Positions 2,660-35,078 of a DNA stretch of 36,005 nucleotides are shown piece after piece (position 1 is the first letter of the stretch; each line of letters begins with the position of its first letter). The stretch comes from a virus: IMG/VR virus record IMGVR_UViG_3300031857_000634, positions 1 to 36,005 of that record; one strand, written 5' to 3'. Both the position numbers and the translations under genes were made by a program. Below the pieces are notes generated by a model. It had not been told where the DNA came from. It ran no database searches and worked only from the letters and a program-made list of their open reading frames with translations.

Positions 2660-4699
2660 ATGAAAGTTATTAAACCAATTGAGGTGTTACGTGATACGTA
2701 CACAGATGTAAACACAAGAGATGTTGTACCAGCTTGGAACAGCGGTACTACATACGGAAGCAGTAGTACTTTTGATAAAGTATGGGTACAGTATCTTGGA
2801 GTGGTGTACGAGAGCATCAAGCCCGTCAATTTAAACAACACACCGTCTAGTGGCAGTACTTGGTGGAGAACTGTAACCACAACGTCCTCAGACGATTTTG
2901 CCGGTTCTGTTTATAACAGTGGTACTACCTACAGTACCGGAGACATAGTATACTACCAAACAAGTAGTACCGACTGGCCAAAGTATTATCAGAGTTTGCA
3001 AAATACCAACTTAAACAAAACACCACCAGATAATTTGACTGGAACAACACCCTACTGGCTAGATCTGGGATACACAAACACAAGTAAATTATACGATATT
3101 GAAACCAGTACACAGACCATTACAACCGACGAACTAATAACCACTTTTACTGCCCGCAAAGTTACTAGTGGTGGAATATTTGGTGCTTATGGTTCGAGAG
3201 TTTTATTAACAGCAAAATCAGAACGCAACCTGTACTCCAAAATAGACTGGAATACTACTGCGTCAGTTCATACTACAACTCCAACACTGAACTCAATGGT
3301 TTTTGCAGCAGACAAAAACATATTGTTGTTGTGCGGTAACAGCGGGTTTTTGAAGTACAGCAAAGACAATGGAGTTACTTGGATTAATTGTGTTACTCCT
3401 GCCACAGCGCCAAATTTAAAAACACTGAGTTACAGCAAGGATAACTCTGTTTTTATAGCTGCAGGTACGAGTAGTGATTCAAGCACTGCCATAATTTGGA
3501 AGAGTTTGGATGGTATTAACTGGACTAATATAACAGGATTGCCAACAGGTAGTGTTTCCTTAAACAAGGCTATCTGGATAAAGCAATTAAACAAGTTTGT
3601 AATTGCTGCCAGTAATGGAAATATTTATACTTCAGATGGTACAGCCACAACATGGTTAGCTTCAAGCGTCGGGGCTGGTACGACCGACTTGGTAGGAATT
3701 GTTTATAATCCAGCAAATGGACTAGTTCACGTAATAGGAAATAATACACTAAGATATAGCAGCGATTTGAATACTTGGACAGCTATAATGTGGCTAAACA
3801 ATATAAGAGATATTGCAGTTGTAAATAACAGTGATTATTCAACAACCGGTTCTACAACACAATATTGTATAGTAGCTGGAACTAGTGGGTCGCTGAGTAC
3901 TACTCATAAGAGCTCTGATGGTATCACTTGGTCAACAGCTGCAATACTGACTGGAATTCCAACAAATTATGTATCTTCTGGGGTAACATACTGCTATACA
4001 GAATCTAAGTGGGTATTAAACATAGGTGGGTATATACTAACCTGGGATGGCAGCGCGTCTACTAGTTATACAGATATTACACCCAGCAACAATCCAAATA
4101 CCAATCGTACAAGAGTGTACTACAATAACTCAACAGACAGTCTTTTCTTTTTTGGTAATAATAGCACTCTAGTAACAAGCCCAAACATTTACTTTAAAGA
4201 GTACAACTTGAATAGTTCCCTAGTAGATAATTGGTATGATTATTTTTACAAAGATTACACTCTTTTGAGCGAGTCAATTTTTGAAGATATTCCTGTTTAT
4301 ACGCGTACAAGAATTACTATTTGTGTTATTGGAGATGTAGTGCGGTGTGGTATTGCTTTTGCTGGTATAAGTAACAAAATAGGAACAACACAATATGGAG
4401 CGTCAGCCGGTATTATTGACTACAGCAAAAAAGAAACAGACGAGTTTGGTACCACTACGTTTATTAAGCGAGCTTTTAGCAAGCGAATGAATGTAAACTT
4501 AATTTTACTGAGCGCTGATTTGTACAGAGTACAAAAAGTTTTAAGCGATGTTCGTGCTACTCCGTGTATTTGGATAGGAAGTGACACAGATATTTACAAG
4601 AGTCTTACCATGTATGGGTATTACAGAGATTTTAGCTTGGAAATTCCATATCCAGAATATTCCTATTGCAGCCTACAAGTAGAAGGATTAACAGAATGA
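2660..4699 (+). CDS. Tail appendage protein with carbohydrate-binding-like modules and BNR-like repeats, 679 aa
   Basis: The N-terminus holds two tandem modules like carbohydrate-binding family 5/12 (chitin-binding type): about residues 25-75 (WNSGTTYGSSSTFDKVWVQY then YESIKPVNLNNTPSSGSTWW) and about 82-138 (YNSGTTYSTGDIVYY, YYQSLQNTNLNKTPP, YWLDLG). The middle (about residues 200-480) repeats S-x-D-G-x-x-W units such as SKDNGVTWINC, SLDGINWTNI and SSDGITWSTA, the pattern of BNR/sialidase-type beta-propellers. The C-terminal 150 residues are unassigned. The start follows AAGGG. The stop overlaps the next start as ATGA. Surface glycan binding is inferred; the modules are seen directly. Confidence 0.75.
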   Translation: MKVIKPIEVLRDTYTDVNTRDVVPAWNSGTTYGSSSTFDKVWVQYLGVVYESIKPVNLNNTPSSGSTWWRTVTTTSSDDFAGSVYNSGTTYSTGDIVYYQTSSTDWPKYYQSLQNTNLNKTPPDNLTGTTPYWLDLGYTNTSKLYDIETSTQTITTDELITTFTARKVTSGGIFGAYGSRVLLTAKSERNLYSKIDWNTTASVHTTTPTLNSMVFAADKNILLLCGNSGFLKYSKDNGVTWINCVTPATAPNLKTLSYSKDNSVFIAAGTSSDSSTAIIWKSLDGINWTNITGLPTGSVSLNKAIWIKQLNKFVIAASNGNIYTSDGTATTWLASSVGAGTTDLVGIVYNPANGLVHVIGNNTLRYSSDLNTWTAIMWLNNIRDIAVVNNSDYSTTGSTTQYCIVAGTSGSLSTTHKSSDGITWSTAAILTGIPTNYVSSGVTYCYTESKWVLNIGGYILTWDGSASTSYTDITPSNNPNTNRTRVYYNNSTDSLFFFGNNSTLVTSPNIYFKEYNLNSSLVDNWYDYFYKDYTLLSESIFEDIPVYTRTRITICVIGDVVRCGIAFAGISNKIGTTQYGASAGIIDYSKKETDEFGTTTFIKRAFSKRMNVNLILLSADLYRVQKVLSDVRATPCIWIGSDTDIYKSLTMYGYYRDFSLEIPYPEYSYCSLQVEGLTE

Positions 4700-32403: not shown

Positions 32404-32706
32404 TTAGTTAGGTTTGTTATTGTTGTTAATAACTGGTTTGTTGTAGTAATAGGTTAGTTTTTCCCATAGTTTTAATAAACCAGGAGTATAGAGATCTACT
32501 ATTAATGCGAAAATATTTATTACAGGCATAAAAGAAGCAACAAGCCTTAACACTACGTCACCCCACGTGAGTTTGACAACGTAGTAGTCTAAGTTATCTC
32601 TGCTTTTATCTCGCTTATAATCTTGGTAGGTTTTGTAAGTATATCCAATCAAACACAGTATTGTTGGTAAAACATACACTAGTATTATTAAATTAAAGTT
32701 GGTCAA
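32404..32706 (-). CDS. Small membrane protein, 100 aa
   Basis: Two hydrophobic spans, about residues 5-22 (NLIILVYVLPTILCLIGY) and about 52-72 (VVLRLVASFMPVINIFALIV), with a charged segment between (YKRDKSRDNLDYY) and an Asn/Lys-rich tail. No family recognised. It starts 14 nt inside the helicase end, so it is co-translated with exon 2, an odd place for a membrane protein. It might be an early function against the host envelope or a superinfection factor; that is speculation. Confidence 0.55.
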   Translation of the reverse strand: MTNFNLIILVYVLPTILCLIGYTYKTYQDYKRDKSRDNLDYYVVKLTWGDVVLRLVASFMPVINIFALIVDLYTPGLLKLWEKLTYYYNKPVINNNNKPN

Positions 32707-33643
32707 TTTTCCATCCTTTGCTCAAGTAAAATCCCATCTTTATAGCCTGTTGTTTCTTTTCTGCAGGACTATTGAAATGTAAATCAATGACTACGGGATC
32801 CTGTTTGTCTTCATGCATTCTCATTACTCGTCCAATGATCTGCTCTAAGTTTACTAGGTTAGAGCTTGGTACTGGCAGAATAACGCAACTCAAACGGTTG
32901 ATTGAAATCCCTTCTGAGAATATCTGACGCGATCCAGCAATACACAACACTTTGCCGTTGTTGACTTTTTCTGCGATTTGCTGTCGTTCTTCAAAAGAGG
33001 TTTTGCCTGTAACAAGCGCGCAATCTTCACCAAGTTTTTCCTTTAAATTTTCTAGAAATTCTACTCTATCAGCAATAACTAAAACACTGTGCTTTTGAAG
33101 GATTTGTGCTCTAGCTACGCCAGCTACAAAGTTTTGATAGTCTTCGTCGTACAATAATTCGTTTATTTTTTCAACCCAAGTCTTTGAACTACTCAATCGT
33201 AGTCCTGTGTTCAGTATTTTAACTGTGGGGTTCAACGTATTGCTTTGTGGTGGACGAATTACTTTTGTTCCAAAAAAGTCTTTGAACAAAACGTGCTTTT
33301 TGTCTTTTCGTTCCATTGTCCCACTCAGTGCAATTCTATAACGAGAATACATAGAGTCTAAAAACTCGTGAAACGTTTCAGCTGGAACGTGGTGTGCTTC
33401 GTCTAGGATAATGGTTCCAAACTCTTTTTGAATTTGTGGAACCATTTTAATAGCAGTCTGAATGTTTGCTATAACAATAAAATGATCTTCGATGTCAAAC
33501 ACACCGCTGCCAATGATGCCAGGCTTCATTCCAAATAGCTTTTCTACTTCTGTAGCCCACTGATCTCGTAGGAAAGTATTGTGAGTTAAGACCAGTGTTT
33601 TTTGTTCTAGTTTTTTAGCAATGTGCAATGCAGTAAATGTTTT
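32693..33643 (-). CDS. UvsW-like DNA helicase, exon 2 (316 codons)
   Basis: The main part of a superfamily 2 helicase. It begins at AAA (33643) directly after the intron and continues TFTALHIAKKLEQKTLVLTH. Then come the DEAH-type box TIILDEAHHVPAETF, motif III ALSGTMERKDKKH, HSVLVIADRVEF, ISINRLSCVILPVPSSN and motif VI NLEQIIGRVMRM. Together with exon 1 the protein has 438 residues. In T4, UvsW unwinds branched and R-loop DNA and shifts replication from origins to recombination. No start codon with a Shine-Dalgarno exists here; an in-frame TTG at 33628 is only a sense codon after splicing. Confidence 0.88.
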   Translation of the reverse strand, partial: KTFTALHIAKKLEQKTLVLTHNTFLRDQWATEVEKLFGMKPGIIGSGVFDIEDHFIVIANIQTAIKMVPQIQKEFGTIILDEAHHVPAETFHEFLDSMYSRYRIALSGTMERKDKKHVLFKDFFGTKVIRPPQSNTLNPTVKILNTGLRLSSSKTWVEKINELLYDEDYQNFVAGVARAQILQKHSVLVIADRVEFLENLKEKLGEDCALVTGKTSFEERQQIAEKVNNGKVLCIAGSRQIFSEGISINRLSCVILPVPSSNLVNLEQIIGRVMRMHEDKQDPVVIDLHFNSPAEKKQQAIKMGFYLSKGWKIDQL

Positions 33644-33672
33644 CGTTTGTGGACTATACCTTTATCTTACTA

Positions 33673-34431
33673 TTATAGAACTAAAGAAGCTGTATCGTAT
33701 TTTCTATCTAATCTAGTTTTTTCTGTAGAGTTAGCGTATAAAAGACTTAGTATATCTTTACTATCGTCCAAATTAAAACGTATAGTGTATACACTACCTT
33801 TTTTATTATTTTGCAACGTTATTTTTTGTGGAATAATTCTATTTATGAGAATACCACATAACTCTACATATTCTTCTAAGAAATTTCTATTTGCAGAACA
33901 CAGATGGAGAGCTACTCTTTTAGAGGCACTTTTTTCTAAGTGCCCATCTCCGTCTATATAACCGCGCATAAATTCAAGAAATAGGTGTGGTTCTTCAAAC
34001 TCAGGCATTTTATAAGTAAAAGTTTTTGCTTGAGTTATATTGAATTTACTCTCTAAATCTTTTACCATTTGTTCACTATTAAATCTAATTCTAAATGCAG
34101 TATTATTCATAAAAGGACATATATCGTGCCCAGACTCTACCGCATTTTTAAATTTTTCTAGATGTTTATAGTCTTGCGCCTGTAGGGCCAACCCCACTCT
34201 GTTTCTTTCTTTCTCTATCCAACCATCGGCCGCTAAAAATCCGGCCCAGTAATATACTGCTTTTTCTTTACCTGAAAAATAGTACTCATTCAATGGTTTT
34301 TTCTTAGAATAGTCTAGACCCCAAGATTTCGTCCTATAATTAACCTGTCTTTCTGTCAGGTCAAAAATAGTTCCTATTTCTGAGAAAGTCTTTCCTTGTT
34401 GTCTTAGATTTAAAAATTCTTCTTTAGTCAT
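33673..34431 (-). CDS. LAGLIDADG homing endonuclease with N-terminal helix-turn-helix, 252 aa
   Basis: Encoded within the group I intron, between P7 strands. The first 40 residues form a helix-turn-helix-like unit (FLNLRQQGKTFSEIGTIFDL, TERQVNYRTKSWGL). Two LAGLIDADG motifs follow: YWAGFLAADGW (about 61-71, Asp69) and RGYIDGDGHL (156-165, Asp162), spaced as in a single-chain double-motif enzyme. It would cut intronless helicase alleles at the insertion site and spread the intron by repair. The HTH may add DNA contact or regulate its own gene. A hairpin (34497-34521) precedes it. The ribosome site is weak (GGGG). Confidence 0.88.
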   Translation of the reverse strand: MTKEEFLNLRQQGKTFSEIGTIFDLTERQVNYRTKSWGLDYSKKKPLNEYYFSGKEKAVYYWAGFLAADGWIEKERNRVGLALQAQDYKHLEKFKNAVESGHDICPFMNNTAFRIRFNSEQMVKDLESKFNITQAKTFTYKMPEFEEPHLFLEFMRGYIDGDGHLEKSASKRVALHLCSANRNFLEEYVELCGILINRIIPQKITLQNNKKGSVYTIRFNLDDSKDILSLLYANSTEKTRLDRKYDTASLVL

Positions 34432-34496
34432 ACTATGTACCCCATATGTGGTTTTGATACAAAGTAAGATATTCGCCGTGTTATACTACTATTAAA

Positions 34497-34521
34497 TACC
34501 TTACCAAGGTATTTAATTTTA
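34497..34521 (-). repeat. Perfect hairpin just upstream of the intron endonuclease gene
   Basis: On the minus strand TTAAATACCTT (34521-34511) and AAGGTATTTAA (34507-34497) are perfect complements around a GGT loop. It lies inside the intron after the R element, 66 nt before the endonuclease ATG. It could be a peripheral intron stem (P8 region) or a control element for the endonuclease. Confidence 0.7.
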
Positions 34522-34712
34522 CCCCATCCAACAAAAATCTTCAAGGATAATTTTTCGTATCCCAGTCCAGTTCCGTTCTGGAGCTGCTGTGAGTCTCTGA
34601 ACCATTTGAAGGCATTCCTGCCAACTCTGGCTGCTGATTGTCCTGTTTAGGCTTTCCAGCAATTGAGCGAATTTATTACTAATTAGTCGCCTAATTAGAG
34701 GGCAAAACATTT

Positions 34713-35078
34713 ACCCCAGCCTACTAGGGCATTAATAAAGCAAGTGTCGTTTACTTCTTCGTATACAGGAGTTTGTGTGTCACGCAGTTCCAACAGTGTT
34801 TTAGGAAACGGAACTTCGTTTTTTACTCGCTTGTCTACTATTAAGTAGTCTTGTGGAATCAAGTCTGTTCGACCTTGTGGAATGCTGATTACGTCACCTG
34901 GTAGTAACTTGTAGTTTTTAATAATTTCTAGTCTTTTTGTTTTGCTAGTTTTTGCACTTCCGCCAATATTGTGTTCTATTACATAAGTGAGTTCACTCAT
35001 TATGAAATTTTTGTACTCGCGGTCTTTGCACTTAAAGTATATTCGATTGCTTATGATTGCTTTGTTTTGTTCTGTCAT
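34713..35078 (-). CDS. UvsW-like DNA helicase, exon 1 (122 codons)
   Basis: N-terminal portion of the helicase, from the ATG at 35078 (overlapping the upstream stop, ATGA) to Gly122 in CFINALVGWG, where the P-loop is cut. Without splicing the frame runs only five codons into the intron (KCFAL) and stops. The domain before the P-loop (RIYFKCKDREYKNFIMSELT, then RLEIIKNYKLLPGDVISIPQ, LIPQDYLIVDKRV, PFPKTLLELRDTQ) has the RNA/DNA-binding and Q-motif layout of UvsW-type proteins. Joining it to exon 2 restores VGWGKTFTAL. Its first codons follow the 173-aa gene. Confidence 0.85.

Follow-up and report, generated by a model that had tools for sequence, protein, structure and literature searches.

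How is a helicase made from a gene that is broken inside its Walker A motif? The question is raised by a stretch of 36,005 nucleotides from an uncultured, T5-like phage (IMG/VR record IMGVR_UViG_3300031857_000634, positions 1 to 36,005; hereafter the window), which encodes a helicase in two pieces on its minus strand. In our reading, to which we assign a probability of about 93%, a mobile group I intron, probably self-splicing, entered the gene of a T5 D10-type helicase by homing, at the Walker A codons. An earlier note, made from the letters of the window alone, had proposed a group I intron in this gene; an Rfam match of 43.3 bits, which lies below the curated cut-off, structural covariation among related introns and, most strongly, alleles without the insertion bear this out.

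The interrupted helicase gene

Exon 1 (codons 1-122, positions 35078-34713, minus strand) ends with GGCTGGGGT, and exon 2 (codons 123-438, 33643-32693, minus strand) begins with AAAACATTT, the Walker A lysine coming first; the 1069-nt intron (34712-33644, minus strand) sits between the codons of G122 and K123. Unspliced, exon 1 runs into a stop and ends as GWGKCFAL-stop, and gene prediction that does not allow for introns would report the helicase as two broken open reading frames (ORFs). Joined, the exons give an uninterrupted protein of 438 residues that contains ALVGWGKTFTAL, with VGWGKTFTAL as Walker A, precisely the motif that the earlier note had reconstructed.

The joined protein has the Pfam domains ResIII and Helicase_C, both found in exon 2, and its best PHROG is phrog_16, a DNA helicase (E 1.3e-62). 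It is 39.5% identical to T5 D10 over 98%; the homology to T5 D10/UvsW-type helicases spans the full length, and Walker A is intact once the exons are joined. Among 50,697 phage records, 3869 match the joined helicase, 40 being listed at 39.5-40.7% identity, and T5 is among the matches listed. Judged by its sequence, the window helicase is closest to the T5 D10 type and is a predicted branch-migration helicase, as T5 D10 is described to be (PMC5180179); the former label, UvsW-like, is corrected accordingly. Residues G122, K123 and T124 are unchanged in 14 of 14 aligned helicases, that of the window counted, and because they are invariant the site would be attractive to an intron, in keeping with the homing strategy at an invariant codon that had been suggested.

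Structure of the intron

The intron ends are set by two helices formed with the exons (all positions in this section are on the minus strand). In P1, the internal guide sequence GCCC (34700-34703) pairs with exon GGGU (34716-34713), with a U.G at the splice site; the helix, GGGGU with GCCC, is lengthened by RNAalifold to GGGGUA/UGCCCU. In P10, intron nt 1-9 (AAATGTTTT, 34704-34712) are complementary to exon-2 nt 1-9 (33643-33635), so that the 7-bp P10 recognized earlier is a minimum. From the DNA alone the insertion point can be shifted by 0-3 nt, as the intron and exon 2 alike start with AAA; the rule of a U.G at the 5' splice site and a G at the intron end settles it as given, and the splice sites and the length of 1069 nt first proposed are upheld. 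U.G, terminal G, P1 and P10 are present in all 21 introns used for the structural alignment described below, whose ends were located by patterns requiring the U.G and terminal-G letters, the pairing of P10 and P1 being measured afterwards.

Inside these ends, the P2 hairpin with a GCGA tetraloop (34679-34698) has changes on both sides in seven of seven alifold pairs (n=21 introns), and the P3 5' strand AUUCGCU (34666-34672) has its partner GGCGAAU at 34477-34471. The P7.1 hairpin (34561-34592) shows two-sided changes in 7 of its 12 pairs. P8 is formed over 9 bp by UAUCUUACU (34463-34471) and AGUAAGAUA (33671-33663), its loop containing an ORF. P7, the guanosine-binding helix, consists of AGACU (34592-34596) and AGUCC (33655-33651), as read by eye and from the Rfam alignment; the segment 33644-33655 comprises this 3' strand and the 7 nt (ACAAACG) up to the terminal G at the 3' splice site, with no space for P9. 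Of the P3-P7 pseudoknot core, alifold recovered P3, P4, P5, P6 and P8 across the 21 introns, whereas P7 was read by eye because alifold cannot draw a pseudoknot. Both P7.1 and P7.2 are in the alifold consensus, a combination given as a criterion of subgroup IA (PMC3428280), and on its predicted helices the intron is of the IA type (IA1/IA2).

At the Rfam gathering threshold nothing passes in the whole window; by E-value, Intron_gpI matches the minus strand with 43.3 bits (E 2.3e-9), under the gathering cut-off of 50. The alignment tracks the helices up to P3 and then wrongly enters the ORF, because the ORF lies within P8 and P9 is absent. A chance match is very unlikely because of two empty-site alleles and of five other introns at the same codon boundary.

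Empty-site alleles

Scanned with the joined helicase, IMG/VR gave 37 loci; the 80 loci of another scan are the best 80 of 580 in a ranking that disfavours split genes, and no occupancy rate is therefore given. Two IMG/VR loci, L003 and L004, encode the helicase without an intron, exon 1 running uninterrupted into exon 2, so that the proposed alignment with intronless homologs yields a continuous protein with 437 of 438 residues identical to those of the window. At the DNA level, they depart from the joined exons at 36 and 32 of 1317 positions (97.3 and 97.6% identity, respectively). When 19-kb stretches are compared, the L003 contig aligns with an intron-bearing contig in two blocks of 96.4% and 98.0% identity, about 17.4 kb, and the intron falls between the blocks; the intron-bearing contig shows no difference from the window over the 11.2 kb examined, and neither contig has an interrupted PolA. 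Thus, nearly the same phage occurs with and without the intron, and such matched phages, 96-98% alike around the site, would make the cost, the homing and any regulatory effect of a P-loop intron measurable. The L003 allele reads GGC/AAGACC at the junction, another natural version being of the GGT/AAAACA kind. Exon 2 of the empty allele would pair with the window guide over 5 contiguous bp, not 9.

Related introns and covariation

IMG/VR was scanned with a core pattern (45 stretches, 48 core matches) and with an endonuclease alignment (8 loci; an earlier endonuclease scan had caught 3 of these contigs), and both scans agree on 8 contigs with an intron at the helicase G/K codon boundary. Together with the window they represent six distinct introns, 59-79% alike, several entries being equivalent in sequence (L052 and L082; L063 and L080; the window and L006/L065; L040 and L015/L070; L042 and L092). 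The other core matches for which the host gene was read lie mostly in PolA, at FGI/LYGSG-like sites, and some in an RtcB gene. The structural alignment comprised 21 introns with the ORF removed, 6 from the helicase site and 15 from the PolA site; duplicates, introns cut by contig ends and those with ends not caught by the patterns (RtcB-site and more divergent Pol-site introns included) were left out. RNAalifold drew 68 pairs. Of the cells, 98.9% are paired, where 200 shuffles give 84.5% (at most 85.8%); two-sided changes occurred in 36 pairs against a shuffle mean of 21.9 (maximum 29).

P10 of the helicase-site introns averages 7.2 bp with the own exon, 5.5 with same-site exons of other phages and 4.0 with the other site, and its changes track exon 2: GUCUU/AAGAC in L063, GAAGUUUU/AAAACUUU in L068 and AAAUGUUUU/AAAACAUUU in the window. 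Two genomes carry both a helicase and a PolA intron. In L063 the two (L063:4153-5175 and L063:1932-2400) share an identical run of 148 nt, against a between-genome maximum of 60; the PolA intron has lost most of its endonuclease ORF, while guide, ORF and 3' end remain site-specific despite the shared core. In L070 the identical run is 53 nt, and the PolA twin is not the closest core. By these sequences, an exchange of core between twin introns would be clear in L063 and only suggestive in L070. The phage of the window, L092, L082 and L068 have the helicase intron together with an uninterrupted PolA motif.

These features may be brought together, tentatively and at somewhat less than even odds, in the picture of a site-specific, P9-less group I family in which P10 may replace P9, a promoter often lies in the P7.2 arm, and the core can be renewed by exchange with a PolA intron next door while guide and endonuclease are kept.

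Two side observations concern the same searches. Introns of the same core interrupt the phage gene for the RtcB RNA ligase just before its DxGCGM motif in L055, L057, L061, L062, L072 and L095, of which L062 repeats L061, and L072 and L095 repeat L055; the RtcB test, limited to L057 and L061, gave Pfam RtcB on one piece each (E 2.6e-15 and 5.2e-43). In addition, Rfam gives for L068:1161-1259 (minus strand) a match below threshold (E 0.63), most likely due to chance, to an sRNA of Clostridioides difficile that is said to lie within a helicase gene.

The endonuclease and a promoter-like site

The ORF in the P8 loop (34431-33673, minus strand), which the earlier note did not mention, codes for 252 residues with a helical region at the N-terminus. 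It matches Pfam LAGLIDADG_3 at its second motif (E 2.5e-11) and the endonuclease family phrog_4645 (E 1.2e-40), and two LAGLIDADG motifs, AGFLAADG and RGYIDGDG, can be recognized by eye. An AlphaFold2 model was built from six sequences, with a mean pLDDT of 84.5; among PDB entries, Foldseek ranks 2dch first, the homing endonuclease I-Tsp061I, which is encoded by an intron (E 1e-8, TM 0.54/0.65), and lists many further LAGLIDADG enzymes after it. A sequence search of solved structures also returned 2dch (E 0.0014); its match to a designed TIM barrel (E 0.005) was taken as chance. On domain matches and model, the product is a predicted LAGLIDADG homing enzyme, which would cleave the intronless site.

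In the phage collection, which may omit records very near the window, the endonuclease has 29 matching records at E 1e-5, with identities of at most 36.7%; 13 of them cover 80% of it, and none of these exceeds 30.8%. A search among genome contigs found only two remote endonucleases (30 and 32%). The helicase-site endonucleases are 52-77% identical to one another, in the pairs printed, and 28-34% to those of PolA introns; they form a group specific to this site.

Upstream of the ORF, within the P7.2 arm, lies a sigma-70-like promoter candidate, TTGAAG-17-TAAAAT (34516-34544, minus strand; score 9/12), which is not significant alone, the stretch having 6 such sites against 4.9 expected from shuffles. 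However, 16 other introns have a site scoring 10-12/12 at the same place in the arm. The best site starts 45-47 nt into the arm in 17 of 18 long P7.2 arms (4 helicase-site, 13 PolA-site), and the mean best score of the 18 is 10.5/12 against 8.2 in shuffled arms, where the shuffles are single-letter ones and the introns compared are related. Shuffles equal the score in at least 5% of cases for four arms, those of the window (30%), L053 (80%), L074 (8.5%) and L085 (6.5%). Four of the six helicase-site introns carry such a promoter-like site within the arm. In L053, the exception among the 18 long arms, both the -10 box and the ORF are gone. A short arm occurs in L064, which has no ORF, but also in the helicase introns of L063 and L068, which have one, so the link with the ORF is not strict. 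Immediately downstream of the site, the arm contains a near-perfect palindrome, ATTAAATACCTTGGTAAGGTATTTAAT (34517-34491).

Comparison with known systems

The T4 introns in td, nrdB and nrdD are, like that of the window, mobile group I introns with endonuclease ORFs in genes of DNA metabolism, but the endonuclease families and the genes are others. A closer parallel is found in Staphylococcus phages of the genus Silviavirus. Romulus (NC_020877) has a 247-nt intron (Intron_gpI 91 bits, E 6.5e-24), which we read as lying between G and K of QATNAGKT, that is, at the same Walker A boundary of an SF2 helicase as in the window; a 401-base query around it is at least 80% covered in 52 phage records. 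Genes of Remus and Romulus, the helicase included, have been described as split and/or containing group I introns (PMC7497331), and the Silviavirus helicase gene as intron-containing (PMC5526547). A phage helicase with a group I intron in its P-loop is thus not new, contrary to the view that no example was known; the T5-like, endonuclease-bearing, P9-less family may be. The Silviavirus intron (Romulus, Remus, KSAP7/11) has P9, a different core and no endonuclease ORF, and its helicase is far from D10.

Phage PolA introns share with that of the window a group I ribozyme within a conserved motif of a replication gene; they differ in the gene and in having P9 in 15 of 15 introns of the same core family examined. 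In the cultured T5-like phages PR1 (Providencia) and PM135 (Proteus), L096/L097, a LAGLIDADG ORF lies between two PolA pieces; Intron_gpI gives 34.3 bits in PM135 and no match at E 0.01 in PR1. The latter result comes from a 61.7-kb query, and as this run also missed the introns of L042, L068, L082 and Romulus, which shorter queries found, its misses carry little weight. Papers name PolA group I introns in SPO1, Bastille, Pf-WMP3 and KASIA, with splicing reported for Pf-WMP3 and, by RT-PCR, for KASIA (PMC8541194); the introns of these two carry HNH enzymes, whereas that of the window has a LAGLIDADG one.

The same helicase family also hosts a protein-splicing element. In L090:6593-7656, and probably in L058, an in-frame intein lies at motif II, between DE and CHH; in L090 its start, CLDYETTV, and its end, VSN before C, can be seen by eye, and the split of these two genes as a second intron site was rejected accordingly. 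The window intron is also a mobile element in an ATPase motif, but it is unlike inteins in that its frame is broken by stops and that it has an RNA core; an intein in the window was rejected, since exon 1 runs into a stop. An intein in a helicase gene is described for phage CB7 (PMC7344957). The use of one codon boundary in T5-like and Staphylococcus phages, plus the motif II intein, shows that invariant ATPase motifs strongly attract mobile elements.

Proposed mechanism and alternative explanations

In the proposed course of events, the intron RNA would fold P1-P8 and bind guanosine in P7; the ribozyme would cut after GGGGU, and, with a long P10 placing exon 2, G122 would be joined to K123 and the helicase restored. 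The LAGLIDADG enzyme, encoded in the P8 loop and perhaps partly expressed from the candidate promoter in the P7.2 arm, would cut intronless copies of the conserved site, and repair would copy the intron in.

Several points weigh against this reading. P9 is missing in six of six helicase-site introns: their 3' splice site follows P7 after only 4-7 nt, so that no P9 can form; the PolA-site introns have, in 15 of 15, 28-30 nt after P7 and a covarying P9 hairpin. P9 is a usual part of the P3-P9 domain, not taken here as defining group I, and its absence would bear on the minimal needs of a group I ribozyme; a thin open-access search yielded no report of a group I intron without P9, a weak sign that none has been described. 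All six also score below the Rfam gathering cut-off (30.2-44.4 bits; the five others 44.4, 36.7, 30.2, 38.5 and 42.3), whereas the PolA-site intron of L063 exceeds it with 61 bits. The alifold shuffles do not preserve relatedness; the sequences that yielded the structure are also those on which it was assessed, and core and end patterns decided which 21 introns entered the alignment. Finally, empty and filled alleles differ near the junction at positions -1, 3, 6, 16 and 33, five differences in 36 nt (local P 0.003), which fits co-conversion; yet equally dense clusters occur elsewhere in 4 kb (P 0.74), so that co-conversion is locally suggestive and not exceptional in the region. Intronless relatives, too, often have GGT AAA AC, so that these differences give no direction of change, and an empty allele made resistant by silent changes is an equally good reading.

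Were the intron a relic dead for splicing, as the absence of P9 might indicate, the helicase would be made as two polypeptides that assemble, for which the split NrdA of Aeromonas phage Aeh1 is a precedent (PMC7344957). This is very improbable: P1, P2, P7.1 and P8 are maintained by two-sided changes, P10 tracks the exon and the endonuclease ORF is intact; moreover, G122 and K123 of the P-loop would stay separated, and the exon-2 ORF has as its first listed start a TTG at 33628, past the P-loop lysine. An assembly chimera is scarcely credible, since the window and a 91.6-kb contig agree at 100% in intron and flanks, and five diverged versions occupy the same boundary in other contigs, even if all sequences of the intron family come from metagenomic contigs. 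The earlier note favoured a regulator, kept to gate helicase synthesis and hence the switch to recombination-dependent replication. D10/UvsW-type helicases do act in branch migration (PMC5180179), and the intron is retained in six lineages; however, nearly identical phages lack it, so it is not needed, and same-core relatives occupy other genes, as a selfish family would. Such a role, although no search was directed at condition-dependent control, seems to us no more probable than the relic, and gating by splicing is a conjecture.

Compared with these, a spliced mobile intron accounts best for the locus; how it came to share its site with Silviavirus is a separate question. Common descent of one P-loop intron, instead of independent capture, is unlikely, if far less so than the explanations just weighed: the codon boundary GGT/AAAACA is the same and the guide stretch TTTTGCCC is similar, but the Romulus intron has P9, a core that differs by eye and no endonuclease ORF, and the two helicases align only in their C-terminal part.

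Neighbouring genes and a possible exon mosaic

On the minus strand of the window, the helicase pieces are preceded by the C-terminal piece of PolA (35964-35593; Pfam DNA_pol_A domain) and by an ORF of phrog_4386 (35596-35075), whose stop is overlapped by the start codon of helicase exon 1. This T5-like order, PolA, small ORF and helicase, is also found in PR1 and PM135. In exon 2, a tract of 51 nt (window 33031-32981) is identical to L040 from position 4390 against a background of 83% identity, and resembles the trace that mosaic recombination between phages would leave.

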